Assembly (NCBI RefSeq): GCF_002973595.1
Contig: NZ_PVEO01000009.1
Coordinates: forward strand, 1-64,000
Direction of reading: 5' to 3'
Source: Jejuia pallidilutea
Lineage (GTDB): Bacteria; Bacteroidota; Bacteroidia; Flavobacteriales; Flavobacteriaceae
DNA length: 64,000 nucleotides
A program made the translations under genes and the position numbers. Every line of letters starts with the position of its first letter. Position 1 is the stretch's first letter. Below are positions 25,051 through 56,207 of this stretch, in pieces. The notes under the pieces are model-generated. The model was not told where the DNA came from. It made no database searches and saw nothing but the letters and a program-made list of their open reading frames with translations.

Positions 25051-25058
25051 TAAAAATA
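25051..25058 (-). promoter_or_regulatory. -7 box of the ppdK promoter
   Basis: Minus-strand TATTTTTA is one mismatch from TAnnTTTG. It lies exactly 23 bases downstream of the Fnr-type palindrome, the same spacing as at pflB, ccoI and ccoS. Confidence 0.55.
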
Positions 25059-25081
25059 ACTTTTTAAGAGGGAAATAATCA

Positions 25082-25093
25082 TGATAAAAATCA
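25082..25093 (-). promoter_or_regulatory. Fnr-type operator upstream of ppdK
   Basis: TGATAAAAATCA, flanked by A and T to give a 14-base ATGA...TCAT palindrome. It fits the TGAY-N4-RTCA pattern of the Crp/Fnr family and is centred near -41 of the predicted promoter, an activating position. Confidence 0.7.
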
Positions 25094-25221
25094 TGTAAAC
25101 ACATTGTTTTTTAAGGAATTAACAGTTTATTTGATATGTTTTAATAATATGTGATTTAAAATAGCTTTTATTAATAAAACCGCAACTACCTAAGCAATTG
25201 GCACAGATATAATCCATAAAA

Positions 25222-25253
25222 AAAAGCACCTCCATTTTCATGAAGGTGCTTTT
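25222..25253 (-). terminator. Terminator after the OFA transporter gene
   Basis: AAAAGCACCTcCAT (25222-25235) pairs with ATGaAGGTGCTTTT (25240-25253); on the minus strand it is followed by a long U run. It ends the pflB-pflA-transporter transcript. Confidence 0.88.
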
Positions 25254-25274
25254 CGACTAACTCAAACAAAAAGT

Positions 25275-26543
25275 TTATGCAAACTTTAGTTTTTCTTCTA
25301 TTTTTTTTGCGTTTTCCTTGTGTGCCTTAACTACTGTTCGTTTCATTAACAATGCTACAATTAAAGCAATAACAAATAATCCAGCGAATACTTTTAATGT
25401 TGTATCTAGGGAGCCTGTGGCGTTTTTAACCATATCGTAAATGGTAGGTCCTACAACACCTGCTAATCCCCATGCTGCTAGTACCATTCCATGAATAGCT
25501 CCAAGCTGTTTTGTACCAAATAAATCGCCTAAAAACGCTGGTAGAGTTGCGAAACCACCACCATACATAGTTATTACGGTAAATAGTACAATTAAAAATG
25601 CCAATTCCATTGATATTTGTGGTAAGAAATAGAACGCTAAAATCTGGAATGCAAAGAAAACTATATAAGTATTTGCGCGCCCTAGGTAATCTGATAAGGT
25701 AGACCACATAATTCTACCAAGACCATTAAACACGCCTATTAAACCAACAATAGCGGCAGCTTCCATTGGTGTATAATTAAGTTTTTCTTGCATCATTGGG
25801 CTTGCTGCCGAAATAATAGCTATACCACAAGCAATATTAATAAACATCATAATCCAGATGTAATAAAATCGTGGTGTTTTTAAAGAGGCGTTAGCGGTAA
25901 TATTTGCCAAATCTTTTTTAATGGTTTTACCTTCTCCCGGTTTAAACCCATCTGGCATGTAGCCTTCCGGTGGTCTTTCTATATATCTAGCAGAAGATAA
26001 AATTAGTACCATATAAATAATACCTAAAATGTAAAAAGCATTGGAAACGCCTACACTATCAAAAAGCGATTGCATTACAGGACCAAATATTAAGGCAGCA
26101 AAACCAAAGCCCATAATGGCCATTCCTGTAGCTAAACCTCTACGGTCTGGAAACCACTTTACCAATGTACTTACTGGTGTAATGTAGCCTAAACCTAGAC
26201 CTATACCACCTATAACACCGTAGCATAAATAGAATAACCATAAAGACTCTAACTGTACTGCTAGTCCTGATCCTAATATACCAACACCGTAAAATATACC
26301 TGCGGTTGTACCGCTAATTTTTGGGCCAACTTTTTCTACCCACCTACCTAAAAATGCTGCAGACAAGCCTAATAGCAAAATGGCAATTTTAAATGCCCAT
26401 TTGATAACGCTGCCTTCAACATCAAAAATATCTTTAACCGGATTGGTCATAACTGAATATGCATATACAGACCCAATTGAGATGTGGATCCCTACTGCTG
26501 AAGCTGCTATGAGCCATCGGTTTTTTAGTTTTTGTGTTTTCAT
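25275..26543 (-). CDS. OFA-family MFS transporter (oxalate/formate antiporter family)
   Basis: A 422-residue major-facilitator protein with 12 predicted membrane segments. The N-terminus (NRWLIAASAVGIHISIGSVYAYSV) and the A-loop region around WFPDRRGLATGMAIMGFG are typical of the OxlT/OFA family, whose characterised members exchange oxalate and formate; many others carry monocarboxylates. It lies 38 bases downstream of pflA, so export of formate or another fermentation acid is a reasonable inference, but the substrate is unproven. A basic C-terminal tail ends the protein. Confidence 0.85.
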   Translation of the reverse strand: MKTQKLKNRWLIAASAVGIHISIGSVYAYSVMTNPVKDIFDVEGSVIKWAFKIAILLLGLSAAFLGRWVEKVGPKISGTTAGIFYGVGILGSGLAVQLESLWLFYLCYGVIGGIGLGLGYITPVSTLVKWFPDRRGLATGMAIMGFGFAALIFGPVMQSLFDSVGVSNAFYILGIIYMVLILSSARYIERPPEGYMPDGFKPGEGKTIKKDLANITANASLKTPRFYYIWIMMFINIACGIAIISAASPMMQEKLNYTPMEAAAIVGLIGVFNGLGRIMWSTLSDYLGRANTYIVFFAFQILAFYFLPQISMELAFLIVLFTVITMYGGGFATLPAFLGDLFGTKQLGAIHGMVLAAWGLAGVVGPTIYDMVKNATGSLDTTLKVFAGLFVIALIVALLMKRTVVKAHKENAKKIEEKLKFA

Positions 26544-26581
26544 AACTGTTACTGTTTAGATGTTGCCTTTACAACATCCCT

Positions 26582-27310
26582 TTAATTTACTTTTACTTCT
26601 TTAAAATAATTTTGCAATATCGCTACTGCCGCATCTATTTCTTCTTTTGTGTTTTCTCGAGCATCTTTTAATTGGTATTCCCATCCTAAAGATTCCCATT
26701 TATGTATACCTAATTTATGATAAGGCTGAATTTCTATTTTTTCAATGGTTTTATAATCTTTAAAGTACGCTCCCATTTCGTGTAGCAGTTCAGGTGTATT
26801 TGTTATACCTGGAATTAACACATAGCGTAGCCACATTTTTTTTCCTGAAGCTTCTCTATGCTTAGCAAAGGTAAAGGTGGTTTCTTTATTTTTTTTACCA
26901 GTAATGTACTTATACCCTTCTTCAGTCATGTGTTTAATATCCAACATTACTAAATCTGCATATTCGTCAAGTAATTCTTCGGTAAAATGGTTAAGAAGTC
27001 TACCATTAGTATCAATATTGGTATGTATACCCTCTTCTTTTAACCTTTTAAAAAACGGAATGAGTTCTTTTGATTGTAAAAGCGGTTCGCCACCTGATAC
27101 GGTAACACCGCCCTTTTTTCCAAAGTAAGGCTTCTTTTTTATAGCCATTTGCACCAACTCTTCTACGTGGTATTCTTTACCGCCATGGGTATCGATAGTA
27201 TCGGGGTTGTGGCAATATAAACACTTTAGTTTACAGCCTTGTAAGAACACTACCATTCTAATTCCCGGGCCATCGTGCGTTCCAAAAGACTCAATGGAAT
27301 GCACTCTCAA
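26582..27310 (-). CDS. pflA: Pyruvate formate-lyase-activating enzyme (non-ATG start)
   Basis: Radical-SAM enzyme that installs the glycyl radical on PflB. The CxxxCxxC iron-sulfur motif is at residues 26-33 (GCKLKCLYCHNP), with the SAM-binding GGEPL near 75. About 242 residues, normal length. There is no ATG: the conserved reading ILRVHSIESFGTHDGPG runs up to a TAA at 27344-27346 without any Met, so translation must begin at TTG (27310, as listed), at the GTG two codons later, or at an upstream ATT/ATC/ATA. It follows pflB by about 100 bases with a hairpin between them. Confidence 0.92.
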   Translation of the reverse strand: MRVHSIESFGTHDGPGIRMVVFLQGCKLKCLYCHNPDTIDTHGGKEYHVEELVQMAIKKKPYFGKKGGVTVSGGEPLLQSKELIPFFKRLKEEGIHTNIDTNGRLLNHFTEELLDEYADLVMLDIKHMTEEGYKYITGKKNKETTFTFAKHREASGKKMWLRYVLIPGITNTPELLHEMGAYFKDYKTIEKIEIQPYHKLGIHKWESLGWEYQLKDARENTKEEIDAAVAILQNYFKEVKVN

Positions 27311-27351
27311 TATGTTATCTTTTGATTGGATAATAATTGGGTTTTAAATTA

Positions 27352-27392
27352 GCATCTGAGAAAAAAGCTTTAACACTTCGTTTCTCAGATGC
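27352..27392 (-). other. Intercistronic hairpin between pflB and pflA
   Basis: A perfect 12-bp inverted repeat, GCATCTGAGAAA (27352-27363) and TTTCTCAGATGC (27381-27392), with a 17-base loop. No U tract follows on the minus strand, so it is more likely an mRNA-stability or attenuation element than a full terminator. It could protect the pflB message and lower pflA output. Confidence 0.75.
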
Positions 27393-27412
27393 CTACAAAA
27401 TATAAATAGAGT

Positions 27413-29638
27413 TTAGATTGATTCGTGGAAAGATCTAGTAATCACTTCCATTTGTTGTTCTTTAGTTAATCTTACAAAGTTTACTGCATAACCAGAAACT
27501 CTAATAGTTAACTGCGGATACTCTTCTGGATGTTCCATAGCGTCTAGTAATGTTTCTTTATCTAGAACATTTACATTAAGGTGATGTGCGTTTCTAGAGA
27601 AATAACCATCTAAAATTGTTGCTAGGTTTTCAATACGCTCTTCAGTATCAGCACCTAAAGATTTTGGCACTATTGAGAAGGTATTAGAAATACCGTCTTG
27701 AGAATCTTTATAATCTATTTTTGCAACAGAGTTTAATGATGCTATAGCACCTTGAGAATCTCTACCGTGCATTGGGTTTGCACCTGGTGCAAATGGTACA
27801 CCTTTGGCTCTACCATCTGGTGTTGCTCCTGTTTTCTTACCATATACTACATTTGATGTAATGGTTAATACAGACATTGTTGGTTCTGCGTTTTTATAAA
27901 CAGGTAGCTTTTTTAATTCATCATTAAAATCGGCTACTGCTTTAGCGGCTAAAGCATCTACACGATCATCGTCATTACCATAGCAAGGGAATTCACCTTC
28001 AATTTTAAAATCTACCGTTAAACCATCTTCGTTTCTAATTGGTTTTACTTTTGCATATTTTATTGCTGATAATGAATCTGCTACGATTGATAATCCGGCG
28101 ATACCGTAAGCAATATTAATACTTGGGTTGGTATCAATTAAAGCCATTTGTGCTTTTTCGTAGTAATATTTATCATGCATGTAGTGAATAATGTTCATAG
28201 AATCATTATAAACTCGTGCTACTTCTTTCATGGCTATTTTAAAATTGGCCATTACTTTATCGTAATCTAAGTACTCACAATCGCATGGCTCTATACCGTC
28301 TACCATTTGTGTTCCTGTAATTTCACAACGTCCGCCATTAATAGCTAACAATAATGTTTTAGCTAAATTGGTACGTGCTCCAAAAAACTGGATAGATTTT
28401 CCTAATTCTTGATAAGACACACAACATGCAATACCATAATCATCAGAACCTCTGTTGGTTCTCATCATTTCATCATTTTCAAACTGAATTGAAGAGGTAT
28501 CTATAGATACTTTTGCACAGAAATTTTTAAAGTTTTGTGGTAATCTTTCAGACCAAAGAATCGTCATATTTGGCTCTGGTGAAGGTCCTAAGTTATACAG
28601 TGTGTTTAAAAAACGGAAAGATGTTTTGGTTACTTTAGTTCTTCCATCATCAAACATACCACCTATAGCTTCGGTTACCCATGTTGGATCTCCAGCAAAA
28701 ATTTCATCGTAAGCACTCATTCTTAAATGACGTACCATTCTCAATTTCATCACAAATTGATCGATATACTCTTGTGCTTCTTCTTCAGTAATTAGGCCTT
28801 CTTGTAAATCGTTTTCAATATAAATATCTAAAAACGTAGATACGTTACCAAGCGACATAGCAGCACCATCTTGCTCTTTTACAGCAGCTAAGTATGCCAT
28901 ATATGTCCATTGTACTGCTTCTCTTGCATTTTCGGCAGGACGTGTTAGGTCTAAATTGTATTTAGCTCCTAGTTCTATCATCTCTTTTAAAGCTGTAATT
29001 TGGTCTGCAACCTCTTCGCGTAAACGAATTACCGCATCAGTCATCGGGCCAACAATTTTAGCTTTGTCTGCTTTCTTAGCCTCAATTAAGGCATTAATAC
29101 CATAAAGCGCAATACGACGATAATCGCCAATTACACGACCTCTTGCATAATTATCTGGTAAACCTGTTAAAAACCCTAACGAACGGAATTTCTTAATTTC
29201 GGCATTATATGCAGAAAATACACCATCGTTATGTGTTTTAACATATTTAGAGAATAACTCTGTTAAATTATCATTTGGCTTAACACCATGCTCAGATAAG
29301 GCTTTTTGTACTACTTTAAAACCTCCAAAAGGCTTCATTGTTCTTTTTAACAACTCATCTGTTTGCAATCCTACAATTACTTCGTTTGCTTTATCTATAT
29401 ATCCTGCATTAAATGCACTAACTGTAGAAATTGTTTCAGTATCTAATGATCGTACGCCATTATTTTGTCTTTCTTCTTTGGTTGCTGCTTTACAGATATC
29501 CCATAATTTTTCTGTTCTAGCACTTGGGCCAACTAAAAATTCGTGAGTTCCGTAATAAGGAGTAATATTATTGATTACAAAATCTCTAACATCAATCGCA
29601 TCAATCCACTTTCCTGGTTTAAATTGTTTTACTTCCAT
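27413..29638 (-). CDS. pflB: Formate C-acetyltransferase (pyruvate formate-lyase)
   Basis: Glycyl-radical enzyme that splits pyruvate with CoA into acetyl-CoA and formate under anoxic conditions. The 741-residue protein is full-length. The adjacent catalytic cysteines are in IACCVS (about 405-406), and the radical glycine is in RVSGYAV at about residue 716, close to the C-terminus as expected. It heads a pflB-pflA-OFA transporter operon. An Fnr-type palindrome (29725-29736) and a -7 box (29694-29701) precede it, so induction by oxygen limitation is predicted. Confidence 0.97.
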
Positions 29639-29693
29639 CTCTATATATTTATTTAATATTTTGTAAAATCTAGGTCAATAATTTTTGACACTT

Positions 29694-29701
29694 CAAAGGT
29701 A
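29694..29701 (-). promoter_or_regulatory. -7 box of the pflB promoter
   Basis: Minus-strand TACCTTTG is an exact TAnnTTTG match, 23 bases downstream of the Fnr palindrome and about 55 bases before the pflB ATG. Confidence 0.65.
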
Positions 29702-29724
29702 GACACAGAAGTTATTATAAAAGA

Positions 29725-29736
29725 TGACAATTGTCA
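29725..29736 (-). promoter_or_regulatory. Fnr-type operator upstream of pflB
   Basis: TGACAATTGTCA is a perfect 12-base palindrome that fits the Crp/Fnr pattern. Its position relative to the -7 box is the same as at three other promoters in the window. Confidence 0.78.
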
Positions 29737-30013
29737 GTAAAAGTTTGAAAATGAATGTTTTTACACCTTTAAACAAAAACTCTTTAAAACCAAATAATAT
29801 TTCAGACAATAACGACACGGCATTATATATTCTTAATAATAACGTTAAAAAAATGCCAATTCCTAATTAAAACTAGGGTTGTTTTTTTATTTTGATACTA
29901 TATTATGTATCACGAAGCGAGGAATTTACAATATACATTAATTAGTAAGCGTAATAAGTATTTGTAAATCCTATTTATTTTCATAATTTGCATTGACATT
30001 TTCTATACCAACT
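29737..30013. other. Divergent intergenic region, pflB and acyl-CoA ligase
   Basis: About 280 AT-rich bases. The only structure I see is an inverted repeat TGATAC-N8-GTATCA at 29893-29912, about 100 bases before the acyl-CoA ligase start, a possible operator. No ORF or RNA gene is apparent. Confidence 0.5.
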
Positions 30014-31786
30014 ATGACTGAGATTAGTAGACTTTTTGATTTTCCATATTACCAGTTAAAGCACAAACCAAATAATGCTGCTTTGGTAACCAAATACGAT
30101 GGTAAGTGGATAAAAACATCAACCCAAGAATACCTAGATAAAGCCAATGCTTTAAGTAGAGCTTTATTAAAATTGGGGGTAAAAAAGGATGATAAAATTG
30201 CTGTTATTTCTACAACAAACAGAACCGAATGGAATATTGTTGATATAGGTGTTTTACAAATTGGCGCACAAAACATACCTGTATATCCTACAATTTCTGC
30301 AGAAGATTATGAATATGTTATCAATCACAGCGAATCTATTTACTGTTTTGTTTCGGATGCAGAAGTACTTGAAAAAGTTAACAAAATAAAAAGCAAGACC
30401 AATATTAAAGAGGTATATTCGTTTAACAAAATTGAAGGTTGCAAACACTACTCCGAGTTGCTTGATTTAGGCAAAGACACCTCCAATCAAGATGAAGTTG
30501 AAGCAAGAAAAGACGCTGTAAAACCAAACGATTTAGCCACTATTATTTACACTTCTGGCACCACAGGAAAACCCAAAGGCGTTATGCTCTCACATTGGAA
30601 CATTACCAGTAACGTTCTAGATAGTGCAGAAAGAGTGCCACTAAGGGAAGGGGAAAATAAAATACTGAGCTTCTTGCCCATTTGCCACATTTTTGAGCGC
30701 GTACTAATATATATTTACCAACATGCCGGCACCTCTATTTATTACGCTGAAGGACTAGACAAAATTGGAGATAATGCCAAAGAAATCAAACCCAATATGA
30801 TGAGTGTGGTACCACGCCTTCTAGAAAAAGTGTACGACAAAATTATGGATAAGGCCGCCGATTTATCTGGTATAAAGAAGGCACTGTTTTTTTGGGCGGT
30901 TGGTTTAGGCGAACAATGGAAACCATACGGAGAAAACGGTTCATGGTACGAATTTAAACTTAAAATAGCCAATAAACTTATTTTTAGTAAATGGCGTGCT
31001 GCCTTAGGAGGAGAGCTATACACCATGGTATCAGGAAGCGCTGCTTTACAACCTAGATTAGCTAGAATTTTTGGAGCCGCCCGCATGCATGTTATGGAAG
31101 GCTATGGTTTAACAGAAACCTCCCCTGTTGTTTCTGTGGGTAGATATGCAAACCGAATGTATAAAGTAGGTACTGTGGGTATACCTATAGATAATGTTGA
31201 AGTTAAAATTGCTGAAGATGGAGAAATACTAATAAAAGGCCCTAACGTTATGATGGGCTATTATAAAGATGCAGAAAAAACCGCTAGCGTGATGACGGGA
31301 GACTATTTTCATACTGGAGACAAAGGCGAGATTGACGAAGATGGATTTTTAAAAATTACTGGTCGCAAAAAAGAAATGTTTAAAACTTCTGGCGGAAAAT
31401 ACATTATCCCCACGCTTCTAGAAAATGAGTTAAAACAATCCCGATTTATAGAACAGGCTATGGTAATTGGCGAAGGCGAGAAAATGCCCGCTGCTTTAAT
31501 TCAGCCGCACTTCGAGTTTTTGCGCGAATGGATTGAACATAAAAACCATCCTATAGAAAATTCTATGGAAGCTATGGCTAATTCCGAAATTGTTAAAAAA
31601 AGAATACAAAAAGAAGTAGATAAGTGTAACAACAAATTTGGGAAATGGGAACAAATAAAAAAGTTTGAAATTACACCACAAATTTGGTCTATAGATGATG
31701 GGCACCTAACGCCCACTATGAAAATGAAACGCGATGTTATTAAAAAAATGTACCATAGCTTAATAGAAAATATATATAGACCATAG
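30014..31786 (+). CDS. Long-chain fatty acid-CoA ligase
   Basis: Activates long-chain fatty acids to acyl-CoA using ATP. The protein of 590 residues (from MTEISRLFDF) has the AMP-binding motif YTSGTTGKPKG at about 179-189, the GYGLTETSP segment near 366 and the C-terminal signature with TGDKGEIDEDGFLKITGRKKE. I chose the ATG at 30014; a TTG seven codons upstream is in frame but unlikely. It stands just upstream of, and on the same strand as, the MarR-FadB-thiolase-dehydrogenase group, but separated by 268 bases. Confidence 0.93.
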   Translation: MTEISRLFDFPYYQLKHKPNNAALVTKYDGKWIKTSTQEYLDKANALSRALLKLGVKKDDKIAVISTTNRTEWNIVDIGVLQIGAQNIPVYPTISAEDYEYVINHSESIYCFVSDAEVLEKVNKIKSKTNIKEVYSFNKIEGCKHYSELLDLGKDTSNQDEVEARKDAVKPNDLATIIYTSGTTGKPKGVMLSHWNITSNVLDSAERVPLREGENKILSFLPICHIFERVLIYIYQHAGTSIYYAEGLDKIGDNAKEIKPNMMSVVPRLLEKVYDKIMDKAADLSGIKKALFFWAVGLGEQWKPYGENGSWYEFKLKIANKLIFSKWRAALGGELYTMVSGSAALQPRLARIFGAARMHVMEGYGLTETSPVVSVGRYANRMYKVGTVGIPIDNVEVKIAEDGEILIKGPNVMMGYYKDAEKTASVMTGDYFHTGDKGEIDEDGFLKITGRKKEMFKTSGGKYIIPTLLENELKQSRFIEQAMVIGEGEKMPAALIQPHFEFLREWIEHKNHPIENSMEAMANSEIVKKRIQKEVDKCNNKFGKWEQIKKFEITPQIWSIDDGHLTPTMKMKRDVIKKMYHSLIENIYRP

Positions 31787-32000
31787 CAAAAAAACTGTTT
31801 ATTTCTCAAAACAACACTACAGGCTGTATTAAAATATTAAACACAATTTAACTTTCCCTATTTACAGAAAACCGTAATTATTTAACCTGCAAGCAAATAA
31901 GACGCTTTACCCTAAAATAATAGGTGACTAAAGCAAAAAATCTAAATACAATTTAAGCAATACCCCTTTATTGTAAGCAACAAAACCATTTTCGTTTATT

Positions 32001-32018
32001 TATTATGCATGCATAATA
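32001..32018 (+). promoter_or_regulatory. 18-base perfect palindrome, probable MarR operator
   Basis: TATTATGCATGCATAATA is perfectly symmetric and ends 9 bases before a TAnnTTTG box (32028-32035), so it covers the -33 region of the MarR promoter. MarR-family dimers bind palindromes of this size and commonly repress their own operons. Confidence 0.7.
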
Positions 32019-32027
32019 TATTTTTAT

Positions 32028-32035
32028 TATATTTG
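32028..32035 (+). promoter_or_regulatory. -7 box of the MarR/beta-oxidation promoter
   Basis: TATATTTG fits TAnnTTTG exactly and lies 19 bases before the MarR ATG. Confidence 0.6.
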
Positions 32036-32054
32036 AGAATTCTAACTCTCAAGA

Positions 32055-32501
32055 ATGAAAGACAAGACGATAGATTATGTATTAAGAACAACCTGGTTAA
32101 CAGTAAATAAAATGTATAATGAAGAAGCTGCAAAGTTTGATACCACTATGGCTACTGGCTTTACTTTGTTAAGCATAGATCCAGAAAAAGGAACACCTTC
32201 TACAGCGTTAGGACCAAAAATGGGTATGGAAGCCACAAGTTTATCACGTATACTAAAAACTATGGAGCAACGCGGTTTAATAGAACGACATCCAAATCCG
32301 GAAGACGGCAGAGGCGTATTAATACATTTAACCGAGTTTGGTAAAGAAAAGCGTGGACTTTCTAAAGAAAAGGTTTTAACATTTAATGAAACAATTAAAA
32401 AACATATTCCCGAAGAAAAAATGAACCATTTCTACGAAGTTGCAGAAACCATAAACGAATTGGTTTGCAACAAAAAAATATATAATAACAACAAAAAATA
32501 A
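32055..32501 (+). CDS. MarR-family transcriptional regulator of the beta-oxidation operon
   Basis: A 148-residue winged-helix regulator. The DNA-binding part is visible as PSTALGPKMGMEATSLSRILKTMEQRGLIERHPNPEDGR, split between the recognition helix (about 60-75) and the wing (about 80-95), with the dimerisation helices at both ends. It is the first gene of a probable operon with the FadB-like fusion (13-base gap), thiolase and acyl-CoA dehydrogenase. A near-certain operator overlaps its promoter. By analogy with other fatty-acid-responsive MarR proteins, an acyl-CoA or fatty acid is the likely ligand; that is inference. Confidence 0.9.
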   Translation: MKDKTIDYVLRTTWLTVNKMYNEEAAKFDTTMATGFTLLSIDPEKGTPSTALGPKMGMEATSLSRILKTMEQRGLIERHPNPEDGRGVLIHLTEFGKEKRGLSKEKVLTFNETIKKHIPEEKMNHFYEVAETINELVCNKKIYNNNKK

Positions 32502-32514
32502 AGTTTAAATAAAC

Positions 32515-34923: not shown

Positions 34924-34929
34924 AATGAA

Positions 34930-35049: not shown

Positions 35050-35054
35050 ACATT

Positions 35055-36245: not shown

Positions 36246-36252
36246 GCCCAAA

Positions 36253-36408: not shown

Positions 36409-36415
36409 TGTTACT

Positions 36416-38221: not shown

Positions 38222-38264
38222 GTTTAAACTCAAACAATTTCGTGTGACTAATTCGAATGTAAAG

Positions 38265-38297: not shown

Positions 38298-38322
38298 TTA
38301 CTTTAGTTAAAAATAAAATTTT

Positions 38323-43075: not shown

Positions 43076-43130
43076 AATACTATAAACTACAAGATTACAC
43101 TACAAACTTACTATACCACTAGATTATACA

Positions 43131-44405: not shown

Positions 44406-44423
44406 AATTTTTAAGTTTTAAGT

Positions 44424-46511: not shown

Positions 46512-46581
46512 ATAGGATTATTGATTTTTTATTGTTTTTTTACATTTTTGAATAAAATATGGCTTTAAAAGGATAAAACCA

Positions 46582-46595
46582 AGCGCAATTGCGCT
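46582..46595 (-). promoter_or_regulatory. 14-base palindrome upstream of the sugar operon
   Basis: AGCGCAATTGCGCT is perfectly symmetric, GC-richer than its surroundings, and lies 70 bases before the fusion-gene ATG. It may be a repressor operator; no regulator gene lies next to it. Confidence 0.45.
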
Positions 46596-46715
46596 ATTTT
46601 AGACCTTATTTAGAATGTGGTAAACAGAAATTTATAGAATAAGAATTTACAAAATCTCTGGTAACTATTTTGAAGATTTAGCAATAGTTAAAATGAGAAT
46701 TTGTAATAAAAAAAA

Positions 46716-46751
46716 GGCTAAATTCTATTTTTGTTTATATAGAATTTAGCC
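46716..46751 (-). terminator. Terminator after the MoxR ATPase gene
   Basis: GGCTAAATTCTAT (46716-46728) and ATAGAATTTAGCC (46739-46751) form a perfect 13-bp stem; the minus strand continues into a run of eight or more U. Confidence 0.92.
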
Positions 46752-46783
46752 CTGTAGAACTAGTTTTGTAAAATTAAAGTATG

Positions 46784-48250: not shown

Positions 48251-48260
48251 ATGTCTGCTT

Positions 48261-48289
48261 TTAGCTATTGGCGCTTAGCCACTAGCACT
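48261..48289 (-). repeat. Degenerate heptanucleotide tandem repeat before the MoxR gene
   Basis: Four units, TTAGCTA-TTGGCGC-TTAGCCA-CTAGCAC plus TTA, occupy the bases just upstream of the ATPase start codon. The repeat covers the ribosome-binding region of the minus-strand message. Confidence 0.5.
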
Positions 48290-48341
48290 TACTCTATTTT
48301 AAAATTTATAAAAGATAATACCCAAAGTTTATACGTTAAAA

Positions 48342-49469
48342 TTATCCTTTAATTCTCTTTTTTCTATTGGTTTCGTAATCTTCAAAAATCATTTCACCCA
48401 AACCTTTTAACCCAGTATAAAATGCTTTTCCTTGGTTGGCATAAGTAAACTCTCTTACAAATTGCATTAAATAACTATCTTTAGCAATCATAAAAGTGGT
48501 GATGGGAATGTGCAATCGTCTAGCTTGTTGTGCCATCATATAACATTTATTAATAATATGAGGATCTAAGCCCATACTATTTTTATAATACTGCCCATCG
48601 GGTAAACGCAAGCAGCTTGGTTTACCGTCGGTAATCATAAAAATTTGTTTATTTGTGTTTCGTTTACGTCTTAGTAAATCCATGGCAAGTTCTAGGCCCG
48701 CAACCGTATTGGTATGGTAAGGACCTACTTTTAAATATGGCAAATCCTTAATTTCTATACGCCACGCATCGTTGCCAAAAACAATAATGTCTAGAGTATC
48801 TTTTGGGTAACGGGTGGTAATTAATTCGGCCAGTGCCATCGCTACTTTTTTTGCTGGTGTAATGCGATCTTCACCATATAAAATCATACTATGGCTAATA
48901 TCTATCATTAAAACTGTACTCATCTGAGATTTATGCAGCGTTTCTTCAACTACCAAATCGTCTTCAGAAAGTGTAAAGTCTGATATACCATGATTTATTT
49001 GTGCATTCTTTAAGCTTTCGGTCATAGATACCTTATCTAGCGCATCACCAAATTGGTAGCCTCTAAAATCTCCAGTATGCTCATCGCCAATACCTGGGCT
49101 TTTACTTTTATGGTTGCCTTGTCCGCTGCGTTTTATTTTACCAAAAATTTGATCTAAGGCTTGCTGGCGAATAGCACGTTCTGTTTTAGCAGTAATTTGT
49201 AGAGCACCGTTTCCATCAGGATCAATTTCTTCACGTAGATAGCCTTTCTTTTTAAGGTCTTCAATAAAATCTTCAATGGTATACTCTGGAGTTGTTAGTT
49301 TGTACTCCTTATCTAATTCTCGTAACCAACTAATGGCTTCATCAAAATCACCAGAAGTATGCGTAATTAGTTCCTTGAAAATTTCGAAAAGTGTATCAAA
49401 AGGCGATTTGTAAGGTGCCTCGTAAGTTTTAAAAACGAAACCTTTTCTAATAGTAGTGTTGTTTTTCAT
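48342..49469 (-). CDS. VWA-domain protein partnered with MoxR ATPase
   Basis: A 375-residue cytoplasmic protein without signal peptide or membrane segment. The N-terminal 160 residues are helical and charged; the von Willebrand A domain follows with the MIDAS motif DISHS at 190-194 and the later MIDAS residues in MITDGKPS. VWA proteins paired with MoxR ATPases act as metal-dependent adaptors. It is the first gene of the pair, and is divergent from the beta-propeller gene. Confidence 0.86.
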   Translation of the reverse strand: MKNNTTIRKGFVFKTYEAPYKSPFDTLFEIFKELITHTSGDFDEAISWLRELDKEYKLTTPEYTIEDFIEDLKKKGYLREEIDPDGNGALQITAKTERAIRQQALDQIFGKIKRSGQGNHKSKSPGIGDEHTGDFRGYQFGDALDKVSMTESLKNAQINHGISDFTLSEDDLVVEETLHKSQMSTVLMIDISHSMILYGEDRITPAKKVAMALAELITTRYPKDTLDIIVFGNDAWRIEIKDLPYLKVGPYHTNTVAGLELAMDLLRRKRNTNKQIFMITDGKPSCLRLPDGQYYKNSMGLDPHIINKCYMMAQQARRLHIPITTFMIAKDSYLMQFVREFTYANQGKAFYTGLKGLGEMIFEDYETNRKKRIKG

Positions 49470-49578
49470 AGCTGTATAAAAATACTACTTTTATAGAATA
49501 CCTAAGTTAAGATTAACATCTATTTAAACAATTCTGTAATAAGTTTTCATTATTTTCGAAAGCATTAAAAAATAATCA

Positions 49579-52500
49579 ATGAAAAAAATTATTCTAACTC
49601 TAGTTTTATTAAGCTCATTTTCAGTTTTTAGTCAAAATCTTTCTATGGATCTTTTTAAGAATATGCATCCTAGAAATATTGGTCCAGGTGGTATGTCTGG
49701 AAGAGTTACAGCAATAGATGTTGTACATTCCAACCCAGATATTATGTATGTTGGTACTGCCTCTGGAGGGTTATGGAAATCTACTTCTGGCGGTATAAAA
49801 TGGGATCCTATTTTTGAAGAAGAAGTAACAGCCTCTATAGGCGCGGTGGCTATCCAGCAATCTAACCCAAGTGTAATTTGGGTAGGTACCGGCGAGGGCA
49901 ACCCAAGAAATAGTTTAAATGGGGGTTATGGTATTTACCGCTCACTAGATGGCGGTAAAAACTGGACACTTATGGGGCTGGAAAACACCCGCCATATCCA
50001 TAGAGTAATTATAGACCCTACAAACCCTAATACCATTTATGTAGCTGCCATAGGCTCGCCCTGGGGAGAACACCCAGAACGCGGTGTTTTTAAAACTACC
50101 GATGGCGGTATTTCCTGGGAAAAAATACTATTTGCAAACAATAAAACTGGTGCTGCAGATTTAGTAATGGATCCAACAAACCCCAATAAACTTATCGCAG
50201 CTATGTGGGAACACAAACGCGAACCCTGGTTTTTTAATTCTGGCGGTTCTGGCTCTGGGTTACACATAACTTATAATGGCGGAGAAACTTGGAAAAAAGT
50301 AACCGAAGAAGATGGCTTTCCTAAGGGCGATTTAGGCCGCATAGGTGTTGCTATTGCTGCCAATAAACCCAATACCGTTTATGCTTTAGTTGAGGCTAAA
50401 AAAAATGCACTTTATAAAAGTGAAGATGGCGGATTTAAATGGGAAAAAATTAACGATAAAGAAGACATTGGCAACAGGCCTTTTTATTATTCTGAAATTT
50501 ATGTAGATCCACAGAATGAAAATAGGGTATACTCGGTTTTTACATATGTAAATGTAAGTGAAGATGGCGGTAAAAACTTTACACAATTAATGCCTGCATA
50601 TGGTGCAAATAACGGTGTGCACCCAGATCATCATGCGTGGTGGATTCATCCTAAAAATGGTAATTTTATGATTGATGGGAACGATGGCGGACTAAATATA
50701 ACCAAAGATGGTGGTAAGACTTGGCGCTTTATTGGCAACTTGCCTGTAGCACAATTTTACCACATTGCTGTAGATAACGATATACCCTATAACGTATATG
50801 GCGGCATGCAAGATAACGGTTCCTGGAAAGGGCCTGCTTATGTTTGGCGCGCACAAGGTATTCGTAACTCGTATTGGCAGGAAATTAGCTTTGGTGATGG
50901 TTTTGATGTGGTTCCAGACCCCACTAATGCTCGTTTTGGATGGTCTATGAGCCAACAAGGAAATGTGAGATATTACGATGCAGAAACTGGAAATAATTTT
51001 AGCGTTAGACCTACACATCCTAACCCTGATGTATTGTTACGGTTTAATTGGAATGCTGCTATAAGTATTGATCCTTTTGACAGTAATACACTCTATTTTG
51101 GAAGTCAGTTTGTTCATAAATCAACAGATAAAGGATTAACTTGGAAGCTTATTTCAGATGACTTAACAACCAACAATCCAGAAAAACAAAAACAAAGTGA
51201 AAGTGGCGGATTAACCATTGATGCCACAGGTGCCGAAAACCATTGTACCATTTTAGTTATTGAGCCTTCTCCCCTAGAAAAAGATATGCTTTGGGTAAGC
51301 ACAGACGATGGTAAAGTACATATAACAAAAAATGGAGGATCAACATGGACCGATGTATCTAAAAACATTAAAGGATTGCCCTCGGGAAGCTGGATTCCGC
51401 AGATAAAAGCTTCAAATAAAAACAAAGGTGAAGCGCTACTTATTGCTAACGATTATAGAAGATTTAATTACACACCATATGCTTACCGTACTACAAACTA
51501 TGGTAAAACTTGGGAACGTATTGTTGATGAAAACGATGTTGAAAGCTACACATTATCTATAATTGAAGACATAGAAAACCCAAACTTATTATTTTTAGGA
51601 ACCGACGATGGTTTATACATATCTATTAACAAAGGTAACACTTGGACTAAATGGACTGAGGGGTTTCCAACAGTATCGGTAAAAGATTTGGTTATACACC
51701 CTAGAGAACACGATTTAATAATAGGTACATTTGGGCGTGCTGCTTGGGTGTTAGACGATATTCGTCCGCTTCGAGCCATTGCCAACAACCAACAACTGCT
51801 TAATTCTAAGCTAGAATTATTTAAACCACCTACGGCTTATTTAGCTGCCTATCAGCAACCTTCAGGTAGTCGTTTTGGTGCAGATGCACTATATAATGGT
51901 GAAAACCGAAATTCTGGAGCGCAAATTTCTTATTTTGTTACTATTGATGAAAAAACACAATCTAATAACGAAAAGAAAGATGAGGATGATTCTAAAATCA
52001 AAAAAAATACTGCAAAATGGGATTCTTTAACTCTTAAAATTTATGACGGGGATCGCCTAATTAGAACTCTAAAACAAAAAGCACCTAAAAAAACAGGCAT
52101 ACAAAAATGGCGATGGAATTTAACTGAAAAAGGTCCCGAACGTCCTTCCAGAACTATGAGAACTCCTAAAAACGAACCTTCAGGGGTTCGTGTAAAACCT
52201 GGTATTTATAAAATTGCTTTACATTTTGGGGATAAGGTTTCAGAAGAAATGATTAAAGTTGAGTTGGATCCTAGACTTGATACATCAATACAAGCCGTTA
52301 ATGATGTTTATAAAACTGCTAAAGCTATTGAAGAGATGACACAACTGGCTGCAGATGCTACAAAACAACTAGCTGAAAGCAAACAGATAGCAGAAAAATA
52401 TCAGTCTGAATTAAAACAACTAGACAGAGAGAAATACAAAACGCATATAAAAGCTTCAAAAGCAATTGTAAAAGAAATAGATACGCTTATGGCATTATTT

Positions 52501-52776
52501 TTAGGAAAAGAAGATAAACGCCAAGGCATTGTAAGAAGCCCCAAACCCAATATTAGCAGGCGTATTAGTTTAGCAAATAGCTATGTTAGTTCTAGACAAA
52601 ACGGTATTACTGCAACCGAAAAAGCCTTAATAGCACAAGCTAAAACAGCCTTACAAAGTGGTCTTGATAAAACAAATACATTTTTTAATGAAGCGTGGAA
52701 AGGCTATAAAGATAAGATGAACGATGTAAACCTGTCTCCATTTAAAGAAACAAAATCCTTTAAATTACAAGACTAG
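49579..52776 (+). CDS. Large secreted beta-propeller (sortilin/BNR-type) protein
   Basis: A 1065-residue exported protein, signal peptide about 1-19 (ending SVFSQ). Residues about 25-740 carry many BNR/Asp-box blades (SxDGGxxW variants such as SLDGGKNW, TTDGGISW, SEDGGFKW, TKDGGKTW), forming one or two propellers as in VPS10/sortilin-like proteins often labelled glycosyl hydrolase. The C-terminal 250 residues include a charged linker (about 800) and an alpha-helical coiled-coil-like region (about 910-1000). No T9SS sorting domain. Catalytic activity is uncertain; it may be a binding scaffold. Confidence 0.82.
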   Translation: MKKIILTLVLLSSFSVFSQNLSMDLFKNMHPRNIGPGGMSGRVTAIDVVHSNPDIMYVGTASGGLWKSTSGGIKWDPIFEEEVTASIGAVAIQQSNPSVIWVGTGEGNPRNSLNGGYGIYRSLDGGKNWTLMGLENTRHIHRVIIDPTNPNTIYVAAIGSPWGEHPERGVFKTTDGGISWEKILFANNKTGAADLVMDPTNPNKLIAAMWEHKREPWFFNSGGSGSGLHITYNGGETWKKVTEEDGFPKGDLGRIGVAIAANKPNTVYALVEAKKNALYKSEDGGFKWEKINDKEDIGNRPFYYSEIYVDPQNENRVYSVFTYVNVSEDGGKNFTQLMPAYGANNGVHPDHHAWWIHPKNGNFMIDGNDGGLNITKDGGKTWRFIGNLPVAQFYHIAVDNDIPYNVYGGMQDNGSWKGPAYVWRAQGIRNSYWQEISFGDGFDVVPDPTNARFGWSMSQQGNVRYYDAETGNNFSVRPTHPNPDVLLRFNWNAAISIDPFDSNTLYFGSQFVHKSTDKGLTWKLISDDLTTNNPEKQKQSESGGLTIDATGAENHCTILVIEPSPLEKDMLWVSTDDGKVHITKNGGSTWTDVSKNIKGLPSGSWIPQIKASNKNKGEALLIANDYRRFNYTPYAYRTTNYGKTWERIVDENDVESYTLSIIEDIENPNLLFLGTDDGLYISINKGNTWTKWTEGFPTVSVKDLVIHPREHDLIIGTFGRAAWVLDDIRPLRAIANNQQLLNSKLELFKPPTAYLAAYQQPSGSRFGADALYNGENRNSGAQISYFVTIDEKTQSNNEKKDEDDSKIKKNTAKWDSLTLKIYDGDRLIRTLKQKAPKKTGIQKWRWNLTEKGPERPSRTMRTPKNEPSGVRVKPGIYKIALHFGDKVSEEMIKVELDPRLDTSIQAVNDVYKTAKAIEEMTQLAADATKQLAESKQIAEKYQSELKQLDREKYKTHIKASKAIVKEIDTLMALFLGKEDKRQGIVRSPKPNISRRISLANSYVSSRQNGITATEKALIAQAKTALQSGLDKTNTFFNEAWKGYKDKMNDVNLSPFKETKSFKLQD

Positions 52777-52780
52777 CATA

Positions 52781-52816
52781 AAAAAGGGTTTTGAAAAAAT
52801 TTTCAAAACCCTTTTT
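52781..52816. terminator. Bidirectional terminator between the propeller gene and fnr
   Basis: A 17-bp perfect stem (52781-52797 with 52800-52816) with A/T runs on both sides, between converging genes. Confidence 0.92.
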
Positions 52817-52825
52817 TTAATCTTA

Positions 52826-53503
52826 TTATTCTACACGTCGCAATGCACTAACGTCTTCAATTCTAATGTGCTTTCCTACGGTAGAAATAATACCTTCTTT
52901 TTTAAACTGGGATAGCACCCTAATAGCCGATTCTGTTGCAGTACCTACAATGTTTGCATAATCTTCACGAGACAACACCAAACTTATAGTACCATCAGGA
53001 TTTGTTCCAAAGTTTTTTTCAACATAAATCAAGGTTTCTGCCAAACGTTGTTTTACAGATTTTTGTGCCATATCCACAATTACGTCATCTGCTTCTTTTA
53101 AATCGTGTGCCATATCCTTTAACATATCCAAGGTAAATTTAGGATTACGCTCAAGGTCTGCAATAATTTCGCTTTTAGGTATAAAACAAACTTCCATGTC
53201 ATTTAAAGCAGTAGCTTGTAAATTAGAACTCTCATCAGAAACCAAGGAACGTTGCCCAATAAGTTGGCCTTTAACTACCATTTTTACAACTTGGTCTTTA
53301 CCATTTTCGCTTAATTTAGACAACTTACATATACCATCTTTAATACAGTATACGCCGTTTATAGCCTCGCCTTCCTCAAAAATAATTTCCCCCTTTTTTA
53401 TAACTTTTGAGGTTTTGCATCCAGAAATTCTAATTAACTCATCCTTAGTCAAGGACTTAAGCGCATTAAACTGTTTAATGATGCATTGTTCACATTTACT
53501 CAT
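52826..53503 (-). CDS. fnr: Crp/Fnr-family regulator, Fnr-like
   Basis: A 225-residue regulator from the ATG at 53503 (MSKCEQC); a longer frame to 53548 would run through its own promoter. The cyclic-nucleotide-type effector domain is followed by a C-terminal HTH whose recognition helix reads TATESAIRVL; the Glu and the Arg four residues on match the E. coli FNR contacts to TGA half-sites. Cysteines at 4, 7, 29 and 106 could ligate an Fe-S cluster, although their spacing (C-x2-C-x21-C) differs from E. coli FNR. It is divergent from ccoI and shares a palindrome with it. Confidence 0.88.
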   Translation of the reverse strand: MSKCEQCIIKQFNALKSLTKDELIRISGCKTSKVIKKGEIIFEEGEAINGVYCIKDGICKLSKLSENGKDQVVKMVVKGQLIGQRSLVSDESSNLQATALNDMEVCFIPKSEIIADLERNPKFTLDMLKDMAHDLKEADDVIVDMAQKSVKQRLAETLIYVEKNFGTNPDGTISLVLSREDYANIVGTATESAIRVLSQFKKEGIISTVGKHIRIEDVSALRRVE

Positions 53504-53525
53504 ACCGAGATGTTTGTTTAGAATA

Positions 53526-53533
53526 CAAAAATA
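53526..53533 (-). promoter_or_regulatory. -7 box of the fnr promoter
   Basis: Minus-strand TATTTTTG, exact TAnnTTTG, 22 bases before the fnr ATG. The Fnr palindrome at 53543-53554 lies between this box and the -33 region, a repressing position. Confidence 0.6.
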
Positions 53534-53542
53534 AATAAAACA

Positions 53543-53554
53543 TGACAAATATCA
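53543..53554. promoter_or_regulatory. Fnr-type operator shared by fnr and ccoI
   Basis: TGACAAATATCA within a 14-base ATGA...TCAT frame. For ccoI it is centred near -41 (activation); for fnr it is centred near -27 (autorepression). Both roles are inferred from position. Confidence 0.72.
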
Positions 53555-53577
53555 TATGAAGTAAGTACTTGTTTTAT

Positions 53578-53585
53578 CATTTTTG
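53578..53585 (+). promoter_or_regulatory. -7 box of the ccoI promoter
   Basis: CATTTTTG is one mismatch from TAnnTTTG and lies exactly 23 bases after the Fnr palindrome and 25 bases before the ccoI ATG. Confidence 0.55.
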
Positions 53586-53610
53586 TTTCAGGTATAAATG
53601 AGCAAATATT

Positions 53611-55986
53611 ATGGGAGCAAAAACATGTTTCCACTGTGGACTAGATGCCACATCTTCTGAAATTGTGTACGACAATAAATCGTTTTGTTGTAACGGTTGT
53701 AAAACTGTTTACGAGATATTTTCTGCAAACGATTTAGGGTGCTATTACGATTTACAACAAGCCCCTGGCGCTACACCAAAAGAAATTGAAGGCAAATACA
53801 ATTTTTTGGATAACAAAAAAATTGTAGAACGCTTGTTGGAATTTAATGATGAAAACACACAAATTGTTACACTCTACATCCCACATATTCACTGTAGTTC
53901 TTGTATTTGGATTTTAGAGAATTTAAACAAACTACATCCTTCAATAAGTTCTTCAATTGTAAATTTTGGAAAAAAAACCGTTAGGGTAAATTACTACACA
54001 AATAACTTTTCTATAAAAGCATTAGTAAAATTATTAAGTAGCATAGGTTACGAACCATTTATAAGTTTAGATGACTATAGTGTGGGCAAAAAAAATGTAG
54101 ATCGTTCGCTAATTTACAAATTAGGAATCGCGGGTTTTGCTTTTGGTAACATTATGTTTTTATCCTTCCCGGAGTATTTTCAGGTTGGCGAATATTGGCT
54201 GGAACAATTTAAACATACGTTTAGGTGGTTAATGTTTACCTTCTCTCTTCCTGTAGTATTTTATTGCGCTCAAGACTATTTTATATCGGCCTACAAGGGT
54301 TTAAAATCTAAACTTTTAAATATAGATGTTCCTATAGCACTTGGTGTTACGGTACTATTCTTAAGGAGTACTGCCGAAATTGTTTTAGATATAGGTACAG
54401 GTTTTTTTGATAGTTTATCTGGTTTGGTATTCTTTCTTTTGCTTGGAAAATTTTTTCAGCAAAAAACGTACAATTTCTTATCGTTTGAAAGAGATTACAA
54501 ATCTTATTTCCCTATAGGAATTACAAAAATTACTTCAGAGGGTAAAGAAGAGTCTATACAAGTTTATGATATTGAAAAAGGTGATAGGCTTTTAATTAGA
54601 AATGAAGAATTAATTCCTGTAGATTGTATCTTAATTCATGGTAATGCCAGCATTGATTATAGTTTTGTAACAGGTGAATCTAATACGGTTTCTAAAACAT
54701 CTGGCGATAAGTTATTTGCTGGTGGCAAACAACTAAATGGCAGCATTGAGGTTGATGTATTAAAAACAGTAGAACAAAGCTACTTAACGCAATTATGGAG
54801 CAACGATGTATTTAATAAAAATAAAGAGGACGGGTTTACCAACCTAACCAATGCCATAAGCAAAAAGTTTACAATAACCATTTTAAGTATAGCAATTTTT
54901 GCAACCATTTTTTGGATGTTTGTTGATGCATCTAAAGCCTTAAATGTATTTACAGCTGTTTTAATTATTGCATGCCCTTGTGCCATTGCGCTGGCTGCAC
55001 CGTTTACCTTTGGTAATATGCTACGTATTTTTGGTAAGTTAAAATTTTACGCAAAAAACGCCTCGGTAATAGAACAATTGGCGGCCATTAACACCATTAT
55101 TTTTGATAAAACAGGAACTATTACTGCAAACAAAGAAACCTCTATTGCCTATGAGGGTATGGCACTTTCTAGCACCGAAGAAGTGCTTTTAAAAAGTTCG
55201 CTAAGAAACTCAAACCATCCCTTAAGTCGTTCTTTATATGCACTTTTACAGGATAACGATATTTTAACTTTAAACGATTACGAAGAGCATATTGGCAAAG
55301 GTATAAGCGCAACACACAATAACAATTCCATAAAAATTGGATCTGCACCTTTTGTGGGACATTCTTCTGAAAGTACCACTTTAAACACTGCGGTACATGT
55401 AAGCACCAATAATACATATAAGGGAAAATTTACATTTTATAATAAATACAGAAAAGGACTTTCAAAATTATTTAACAAACTAAAAAAAGAATACGATTTG
55501 GTTATACTTTCTGGCGATAATGCTGGAGAAAAAGAGAACTTAACCAAACTTTTACCAGCTAAAACAAAGTTGTTTTTTAACCAAAAGCCCGAAGACAAGT
55601 TAGAGTACATAAAGCACCATCAAAGTTCTGGTGCAAAAGTATTAATGATTGGTGATGGATTAAATGATGCAGGTGCCCTAGCACAAAGCGATGTTGGCAT
55701 TGCTATTTCAGAAGACGTAAATGTATTTTCACCAGCTTGCGATGCTATTTTAGATGCATCAAAATTTAATAGTTTATACCATTTTATAAAAGCATCAAAA
55801 CAGGCTATAACCATTATAAAATGGAGCTTTGTGCTATCTTTTGTTTACAATGCCATTGGCCTTTATTTTGCAGTTACAGGACAATTAGCACCTGTGGTTG
55901 CGGCTATTTTAATGCCTTTAAGCTCTATTAGTATCGTGGTATTTACAACAGTGTGTACTAATATAATTGGACGAAAGTTGAAATAG
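53611..55986 (+). CDS. ccoI: Copper-transporting P-type ATPase of the cbb3 locus
   Basis: A 791-residue P1B ATPase. The N-terminus has a Cys-rich zinc-finger-like module (CFHCG at 6-10, CCNGC near 27), then a heavy-metal domain with CSSC near 95, eight predicted membrane helices, the ion-binding CPC in IACPCAIAL near 454, the phosphorylation site DKTGT near 499 and GDGLND near 681. In cbb3-containing bacteria this type (CcoI/FixI) exports Cu needed for oxidase assembly. Location next to ccoS-ccoNOQP and the predicted Fnr-controlled promoter support that role. Confidence 0.92.
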   Translation: MGAKTCFHCGLDATSSEIVYDNKSFCCNGCKTVYEIFSANDLGCYYDLQQAPGATPKEIEGKYNFLDNKKIVERLLEFNDENTQIVTLYIPHIHCSSCIWILENLNKLHPSISSSIVNFGKKTVRVNYYTNNFSIKALVKLLSSIGYEPFISLDDYSVGKKNVDRSLIYKLGIAGFAFGNIMFLSFPEYFQVGEYWLEQFKHTFRWLMFTFSLPVVFYCAQDYFISAYKGLKSKLLNIDVPIALGVTVLFLRSTAEIVLDIGTGFFDSLSGLVFFLLLGKFFQQKTYNFLSFERDYKSYFPIGITKITSEGKEESIQVYDIEKGDRLLIRNEELIPVDCILIHGNASIDYSFVTGESNTVSKTSGDKLFAGGKQLNGSIEVDVLKTVEQSYLTQLWSNDVFNKNKEDGFTNLTNAISKKFTITILSIAIFATIFWMFVDASKALNVFTAVLIIACPCAIALAAPFTFGNMLRIFGKLKFYAKNASVIEQLAAINTIIFDKTGTITANKETSIAYEGMALSSTEEVLLKSSLRNSNHPLSRSLYALLQDNDILTLNDYEEHIGKGISATHNNNSIKIGSAPFVGHSSESTTLNTAVHVSTNNTYKGKFTFYNKYRKGLSKLFNKLKKEYDLVILSGDNAGEKENLTKLLPAKTKLFFNQKPEDKLEYIKHHQSSGAKVLMIGDGLNDAGALAQSDVGIAISEDVNVFSPACDAILDASKFNSLYHFIKASKQAITIIKWSFVLSFVYNAIGLYFAVTGQLAPVVAAILMPLSSISIVVFTTVCTNIIGRKLK

Positions 55987-56160
55987 ATAACCATAAAACA
56001 CTTCTCTAAGTTTTCACAGAAAATTAGGGAGATAATTTAAACTACGGTTTAAGTTGATAACTGCATTAGGAATTATAGAGAAAAGCTTACCATGAGAAAC
56101 AATAGAACACCTAGAGCGGAAAGCCCAACCAAAGAGATTAAAGCATAAAAAAAATGGGTA
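55987..56160. other. Spacer between ccoI and ccoS
   Basis: No convincing gene. A minus- or plus-strand hairpin terminator is not obvious; an 18-codon ATG ORF at about 56092-56148 was seen but has no support. Confidence 0.45.
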
Positions 56161-56164
56161 AATA

Positions 56165-56176
56165 TGACAAATGTCA
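56165..56176 (+). promoter_or_regulatory. Fnr-type operator upstream of the cbb3 oxidase genes
   Basis: TGACAAATGTCA (with flanking A and T, ATGAC-AAAT-GTCAT). Centred about -41 from the predicted start; activating position. Confidence 0.78.
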
Positions 56177-56199
56177 TCTTTTTAAAATAAGTATAAAAG

Positions 56200-56207
56200 T
56201 ATTTTTG
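56200..56207 (+). promoter_or_regulatory. -7 box of the ccoSNOQP promoter
   Basis: TATTTTTG, exact TAnnTTTG, 23 bases after the Fnr palindrome and 20 bases before the ccoS ATG. Confidence 0.68.

Follow-up and report, generated by a model that had tools for sequence, protein, structure and literature searches.

The first 64,000 nucleotides (nt) of contig C9 in the 4.11-Mb genome of Jejuia pallidilutea (C9:1-64000, hereafter the window) raise the question of whether the genes for pyruvate phosphate dikinase (ppdK), pyruvate formate-lyase (pflB) and the cbb3 oxidase proteins CcoI and CcoS share one promoter architecture, and which regulator would read it. In each of these four promoters, exactly 23 nt separate a palindrome from a -7 box resembling TAnnTTTG, as read directly in the sequence. 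The comparisons described below make it likely, in our judgement, that the four promoters belong to a low-oxygen regulon, which is marked by this rigid composite and read by more than one oxygen-dependent activator.

On the minus strand, the ppdK operator TGATTTTTATCA (25082..25093, minus-strand reading) was paired with the box TATTTTTA (25051..25058), and the pflB operator TGACAATTGTCA (29725..29736) with the box TACCTTTG (29694..29701). On the plus strand, the operator TGACAAATATCA (53543..53554) preceded the ccoI box CATTTTTG (53578..53585), and the ccoS operator TGACAAATGTCA (56165..56176) preceded the box TATTTTTG (56200..56207). Two of the four boxes deviated from the consensus by one base, as the ppdK box ended in A and the ccoI box began with C. 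With at most one mismatch allowed, the composite TGAYN4RTCA-N23-TAnnTTTG was found four times in the window against 0.12 expected, and none of 100 shuffled sequences contained at least four copies. The palindrome alone also occurred four times, against 2.63 expected; 26 of the 100 shuffles reached this number, and every palindrome in the window belonged to a composite. Because the palindrome was present at chance frequency, we rejected it as an informative signal by itself and took the spacing as the evidence. The operators of ppdK, pflB and ccoS were recognised from the sequence, their orthologues and the shuffles, and all four boxes from the sequence and the orthologues.

The same composite was searched for throughout the J. 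pallidilutea genome. We found 15 exact copies and no copy of the reversed pattern, which served as a control; with up to one mismatch, the numbers were 49 and 14. When the spacer was allowed to vary from 8 to 38 nt, 27 exact hits were obtained, 15 of which had a spacer of 23 nt and 12 of which were spread over the other 30 lengths. Family models confirmed that hemN (C9:70351), pta (C5:158390), a gene for the ribosome hibernation factor HPF/YfiA (C8:120823), a cytochrome c gene (C5:322582) and a universal stress protein (usp) gene (C2:359516) lay downstream of composites. Further usp-like genes, porins, a molybdopterin oxidoreductase, an ArsR-type regulator and a small heat-shock protein gene (below family cut-offs) were assigned as targets by reading the sequence. 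The start codon lay 8-50 nt past the box in 30 of the 37 hits that were outside reading frames and had a downstream frame; 10 in-frame or frame-edge hits and two hits lacking a downstream frame were omitted from the 49, and the frame was chosen mechanically as the longest, so that ccoS (20 nt) was counted as ccoNO (217 nt). A preliminary description of the window had reported the four palindromes, spacers and boxes, had judged the fixed spacing unlikely to be chance and had offered the composite as a strict search model. All of its readings were as claimed and its observation was correct but understated: the composite was not random in the genome, and the model located hemN, pta, a usp cluster, cytochrome c and the HPF gene. 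Its gene names also held against NCBIfam and Pfam, with ccoP and ccoI under the curated cut-offs.

To place the box, we used the sigma-A box TAnnTTTG of Flavobacterium psychrophilum, which is located at -12 to -5 of mapped starts in the consulted part of that study (PMC9723704). If the boxes found here lie at the same positions, a 23-nt spacer places the palindrome at -47..-36 with its centre at -41.5, and the sequence comparison supports a class-II geometry and a single regulon for the window sites. The extended operator read approximately AAnATGAYAWWTRTCATnTTTT in a logo of 161 sites, which were thinned from 219 distinct composites and biased toward cco, pfl and ppdK. The base preceding TGA (-48) was A or C in 96% of these sites and T in 1%, so that the E. 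coli-type site TTGATnnnnATCAA was not the form found among them. Inside the little-conserved spacer, position -17 was rarely T (9%) and commonly G (35%) in the composites.

The composite was then counted in 149 Flavobacteriaceae genomes from 148 genera, about one per genus. Exact copies were present in 134 of the 149 genomes and totalled 1159, against 21 for the reversed pattern. Spacers of 24-33 nt together gave 559 copies, or 55.9 per spacer, with 304 in the control; the scan of spacers below 23 nt covered the J. pallidilutea genome. In a separate draw of 247 genomes across the phylum, the mean number of composites fell from 9.4 in the same family (n=27) to 6.3 in other families of the order (n=3) and 3.1 in other orders of the class (n=31), and the remaining 186 genomes mostly had 0-1 composites with a maximum of 6.

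Orthologous promoters were compared at 80 loci of the Fnr-like protein encoded at 52826-53503 (Fnr-A), with counts anchored on the ccoI gene; the best-matching Fnr-A relative among these loci came from Hyunsoonleella jejuensis, family Flavobacteriaceae (96% identity). In 76 of the 80 loci, ccoI started at a distance of 40-250 nt from fnr; in the other four the distance was about 3.4 kb. The ccoI box was found at a spacer of 23 nt in 75 loci and 22 nt in three, and two loci had no usable site (L152, which had no palindrome, and L157, which had TACTTTCG). A ccoNO start and the DNA preceding it were available in 72 of the 80 loci, and all 72 carried the ccoS box at spacer 23. With the J. pallidilutea genome included, 28 ppdK orthologues had upstream DNA, and 27 of them carried the composite at spacer 23 (10 exact boxes, 15 with one mismatch and two with two mismatches, often TAnnTTTA); the pflB composite was exact in 16 of 21 orthologues, had one box mismatch in one and was weak in one. 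As only 31 and 21 of the 149 genomes contained ppdK and pflB, respectively (E <= 1e-100), the link between site and gene mostly persists where the genes do. Pyruvate phosphate dikinase is the least expected member of the putative low-oxygen set, and by this comparison its site holds up. Three ppdK frames (L205, L217 and L225, from genomes G132, G147 and G106) each contained one in-frame stop.

Three types of protein were considered as readers of the operator. Fnr-A, encoded by fnrA on the minus strand (52826..53503), has 225 amino acids, cysteines C4, C7, C53 and C106, and the recognition helix TESAIRVLSQF; it scored 98.6 bits with the NCBIfam Fnr model, below the curated cut-off of 228, and is thus Fnr-like rather than a curated Fnr. 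Fnr-B (C2:377308-378012) was 55% identical to Fnr-A in the same genome, which also encoded a weaker Fnr-A paralogue at C7:218357 (33% identity). The third candidate, a 350-residue protein at C2:359580-360632 (receiver-CRP), combined a receiver, a cNMP-binding domain and a Crp-type helix-turn-helix (HTH) domain. The PAS domain of the adjoining histidine kinase had FixL as its best PDB match (E 2.7e-14) with an aligned His, which we take to be the proximal heme ligand as in FixL. A kinase adjoined receiver-CRP on the same strand in all 30 loci fetched from the 66 genomes that have one, the phospho-Asp position of the receiver was kept in 30 of 30 proteins, and the PAS was FixL-like in 25 of the 30 loci (24 by motif and L246 by alignment). 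Upon alignment of 81 Fnr-A, 17 Fnr-B-type and 30 receiver-CRP proteins, the recognition-helix residues E191, I194 and R195 were identical in 128 of 128.

Both Fnr-B and the gene pair formed by receiver-CRP and its FixL-like kinase lay in a 35-kb island (C2:343384-378012) that was dense in composites. This island also contained nrfH, nrfA, a ResB/cytochrome-c-assembly fusion, about six usp-like genes, a small heat-shock protein gene and a thioredoxin-like gene.

The number of composites per genome varied with the regulators present. Genomes were assigned to the Fnr-A/B class when their best listed match was at least 47% identical to Fnr-A (89 genomes) and to the receiver-CRP class by E <= 1e-50 (66 genomes). 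The mean was 13.9 composites with both kinds (n=36), 6.7 with Fnr-A/B only (n=53), 8.9 with receiver-CRP only (n=30) and 0.64 with no hit (n=22, 15 of them with zero). After genome size was taken into account, the effects were +4.35 for Fnr (t 5.7) and +6.75 for receiver-CRP (t 9.5), with shared ancestry still in the data. The targets were also compared in seven genomes, with all exact composites surveyed in G143, G130, G101 and G017, 6 of 9 in G027, 5 of 7 in G072 and 7 of 10 in G107. Four genomes with receiver-CRP only had sites before hemN (4/4), ccoS-ccoNO (3/4), the same cytochrome c (3/4), usp-like genes (3/4) and the HPF gene (1/4). In the three genomes with Fnr only, sites preceded ccoS-ccoNO, cytochrome c and the HPF gene in two each, and in G017 also hemN, pflB, pta and nrfH. 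Motif, spacing, conservation, co-occurrence with regulators and common recognition residues were all directly observed, and their simplest reading would be a single regulon whose sensors vary.

Several observations weigh against this reading. The genomes share ancestry, so that their copy counts are not independent. Only 1-3 composites were present in 12 of the 89 Fnr-A/B genomes, and the eight genomes with only other, weak CRP/FNR hits averaged 2.9; one of these (G048, assembly 82% complete) had 9 composites, and G147, with no regulator hit, had 7 (assembly 73% complete). The N-terminal half of the neighbouring kinase was not FixL-like in 5 of the 30 loci (L238, L244, L247, L249 and L257). 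The site was absent upstream of 3 of 21 pflB and 1 of 28 ppdK orthologues. Of the 49 hits with up to one mismatch in J. pallidilutea, three lay at the edge of a reading frame and seven deep within one, the latter probably by chance; every one of these ten carried one mismatch apart from C7:139494.

The preliminary description had read the four sites as class-II promoters of one regulon, which the comparison supported, and had named the Fnr protein at 52826-53503 alone as their activator, which it did not support. Under that account no protein but Fnr-A would activate the four promoters, and the other CRP/FNR proteins would read other sites; this fits the single operator between the divergent fnrA and ccoI genes of the window and the proximity of ccoI to fnr in 76 of the 80 loci. 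However, genomes with receiver-CRP only keep the composite at ccoS-ccoNO (3/4) and hemN (4/4), the recognition residues are common to Fnr-B and receiver-CRP, and these two regulators lie amid composites at C2:345-378 kb. Considering this together with the cross-tabulation of regulators, we rejected Fnr-A as the sole reader on comparative evidence and regard such exclusivity as unlikely. Somewhat less doubtful, although still improbable, is a division of labour in which receiver-CRP (for example at usp genes) and Fnr (for example at fermentation genes) have partly separate targets with near-identical operators and limited cross-reading. The usp cluster of J. pallidilutea surrounds the receiver-CRP and kinase genes, composite counts look additive, and in the surveyed sites usp-like targets were found in three of the four receiver-CRP-only genomes and pflB and pta in one Fnr-only genome alone; against this, composites before ccoS, hemN, cytochrome c and the HPF gene were found in both receiver-CRP-only and Fnr-only genomes.

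The nature of the signal can be weighed in the same manner. TGAY-N4-RTCA is a generic half-site of the CRP/FNR family, and HcpR of Porphyromonas was among the fold matches of Fnr-A (rank 41), as would suit sites that are CRP-like or that respond to nitric oxide (HcpR-like) or cAMP instead of oxygen. We hold this to be very improbable in view of the targets (cbb3, hemN, pflB and pta), the four cysteines invariant in all 98 Fnr proteins and the FixL-like PAS domain. A chance arrangement of AT-rich palindromes, for which the chance frequency of the palindromes alone in the window might speak, deserves practically no credence, as it is already refuted by the 1159 copies against 21, the single preferred spacer and the conservation in orthologues. 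The reading that we prefer thus remains a low-oxygen regulon with more than one activator.

The structural features of Fnr-A are relevant to its presumed role as a sensor. PF00027 and PF13545 matched the protein, and Foldseek matched its AlphaFold model (mean predicted local distance difference test score (pLDDT) of 79, predicted template modelling score of 0.65, N-terminal blocks with pLDDT about 64) to FNR and CRP structures, in agreement with a CRP/FNR fold. Exactly four cysteines (C4, C7, C53 and C106) were invariant in 98 of 98 Fnr-A/B-type proteins, and none of the 30 receiver-CRP proteins had a cysteine at these positions. In E. coli FNR, the Fe-S ligands are C20, C23, C29 and C122. Fnr-A lacked this four-ligand set: compared with Aliivibrio fischeri FNR, C4, C7 and C106 aligned with cysteines, the third N-terminal cysteine was replaced by N13, and C53 was the fourth invariant cysteine. 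On the basis of conservation, Fnr-A likely holds an Fe-S cluster in which C53, a residue of the beta-roll, has taken the place of one ligand. The recognition residues of E. coli FNR are E209, S212 and R213; of this set, Fnr-A kept E191 and R195, and the serine position was I194 in 128 of 128 proteins.

The border of fnrA and ccoI was distinct in two respects. The ccoI box at spacer 23 began with T in none of the 75 loci (A in 31, G in 28 and C in 16), and the three loci with spacer 22 (L154, L155 and L180) all had TAATTTTG, which starts with T. In a further set of 37 ccoI promoters, which included two receiver-CRP-only genomes and may include species already among the 80 loci, T came first in one (L095); duplicates (L051, L052, L058, L083 and L075) and loci that lacked a palindrome or a box at spacer 23 (L059, L087, L092 and L093) were omitted from this set, and no match to ccoI was obtained at the G143 locus (L322). 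The ccoS boxes, by comparison, had an initial T in all 72 loci. The conserved weakness of the ccoI box suggests that the promoter of this copper ATPase is held low or is strictly dependent on its activator. G107, in which the ccoI box at spacer 22 starts with A, speaks against a strict rule of compensation between box and spacer. Of the 75 loci that had a palindrome near fnr, 67 also carried a box on its fnr side at a distance of exactly 9 nt, most often TAnnTTTA and never more than one mismatch from the consensus; these counts and those of the ccoI boxes are inflated by related sequences. In the window, the putative fnrA box TATTTTTG (53526..53533, minus strand) predicts a start near 53521, so that the operator at 53543..53554, with positions derived from the boxes, would be centred at -41.5 for ccoI and about -27.5 for fnrA. 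The 9-nt placement puts the palindrome at -33..-22 of fnr, which is a repressing position, and fnr is therefore probably autorepressed through the operator that it shares with ccoI.

Taken together, these features lead to the following model, in which binding, activation, oxygen sensing and autorepression are steps that we infer from sequence. In most of the sampled Flavobacteriaceae, an operator 23 nt upstream of a TAnnTTTG box would centre the activator at -41.5 in a class-II arrangement. It would be read by the Fe-S Fnr proteins (Fnr-A and Fnr-B) and by the receiver-CRP response regulator, usually encoded beside a FixL-like heme-PAS kinase. Low oxygen would then switch on the cbb3 oxidase (ccoI and ccoS-NOPG) and oxygen-independent haem synthesis by hemN, together with pyruvate formate-lyase, pyruvate phosphate dikinase, Pta, universal stress proteins and the ribosome hibernation factor. 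At the border of fnrA and ccoI, one operator probably activates ccoI and represses fnrA. A more far-reaching proposal, to which we would give an even chance, is that the Flavobacteriaceae possess an oxygen code of their own, with two sensors and one operator, as a counterpart of the FNR and FixLJ-FixK systems of Proteobacteria. In this proposal, an Fnr with a shifted ligand and a one-step relay from FixL to receiver-CRP would be interchangeable, lineages would have swapped sensors and kept promoters, and the ccoI promoter would be purposely weak, with box strength and spacing compensating for each other.

The window genes were identified as follows. On the minus strand, ppdK (22285..25035; NCBIfam TIGR01828) started 15 nt past its box, and pflA for pyruvate formate-lyase activase (26582..27310; TIGR02493) and pflB (27413..29638; TIGR01255) were likewise above their cut-offs. 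On the plus strand were ccoI (53611..55986), for a heavy-metal P-type ATPase that narrowly missed the cut-off of TIGR01525; ccoS, with 61 amino acids and a match to Pfam FixS (56228..56413); a fused ccoNO for cbb3 oxidase subunits I/II (56425..58614; TIGR00780/00781 above cut-off); a ccoP-like gene for subunit III (58815..59762; 106.7 against an NCBIfam cut-off of 179.95); and ccoG (59878..61302; TIGR02745 above cut-off). Outside the window, a single palindrome at C5:322550-322624 was flanked by -7 boxes on both sides, with cytochrome c in one direction and a spacer of 24 nt to the second box. A similar arrangement was found in G017 (C2:256994-257067), with cytochrome c on one side, a spacer of 23 nt to the second box and, on the opposite side, a gene that we presume to encode an Rrf2-like regulator. 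Rows with spacer 24, similar in the composite pattern, were seen in G034, G082, G125 and G145.

For the Flavobacteriaceae, a large family that has received little study, the composite offers a promoter model that is strict and can be tested, and it predicts their low-oxygen genes, pyruvate phosphate dikinase included. It also points to the convergence of two distinct kinds of sensing module on a single operator, and sensor replacement under a conserved regulon becomes directly testable. For this family, we found no published description of a regulon under Fnr or receiver-CRP in mostly open-access literature, at the level of titles and the beginnings of abstracts. In F. psychrophilum, cbb3 and haem enzymes are induced under oxygen limitation, which together with the TAnnTTTG box resembles the arrangement found here; a search of the main text of that study gave no mention of Fnr, Crp or a palindrome (PMC9723704).

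We compared the arrangement with that of E. coli FNR and the FnrN and FixLJ-FixK systems. Class-II regulation by E. coli FNR is similar in its CRP/FNR protein, its palindrome with a 4-nt gap and its activation centre at -41.5, and focA-pflB and nrf are also among the targets listed in the consulted part of the source (PMC3688515). A cysteine-ligated Fe-S cluster is likely common to both. In contrast, the operator here is ATGAY..RTCAT and that of E. coli is TTGAT..ATCAA, and N13 replaces the third N-terminal cysteine here, with C53 invariant instead. The spacing is rigid here, whereas the site lies within 4 nt of -41.5 in 19 of 23 FNR-activated E. coli promoters with known starts (PMC3688515). 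In Alphaproteobacteria, as far as the consulted text goes, FnrN and FixLJ-FixK control cco and hemN through binding sites that are very much alike, a takeover of FnrN sites by FixK has been proposed for Caulobacterales, and two oxygen sensors, an Fe-S protein and a heme-PAS kinase, likewise feed CRP/FNR proteins (PMC4999443). However, the operator and the sigma box here differ from those of both systems, and the receiver is fused to a CRP/FNR half (cNMP-binding and Crp HTH) instead of belonging to a separate FixJ (receiver and LuxR HTH), so that a transcription step from FixJ to fixK would not be needed. Because the operator, the cysteine set and the fused receiver-CRP all differ, the arrangement is a member of neither the FNR nor the FixLJ-FixK system.

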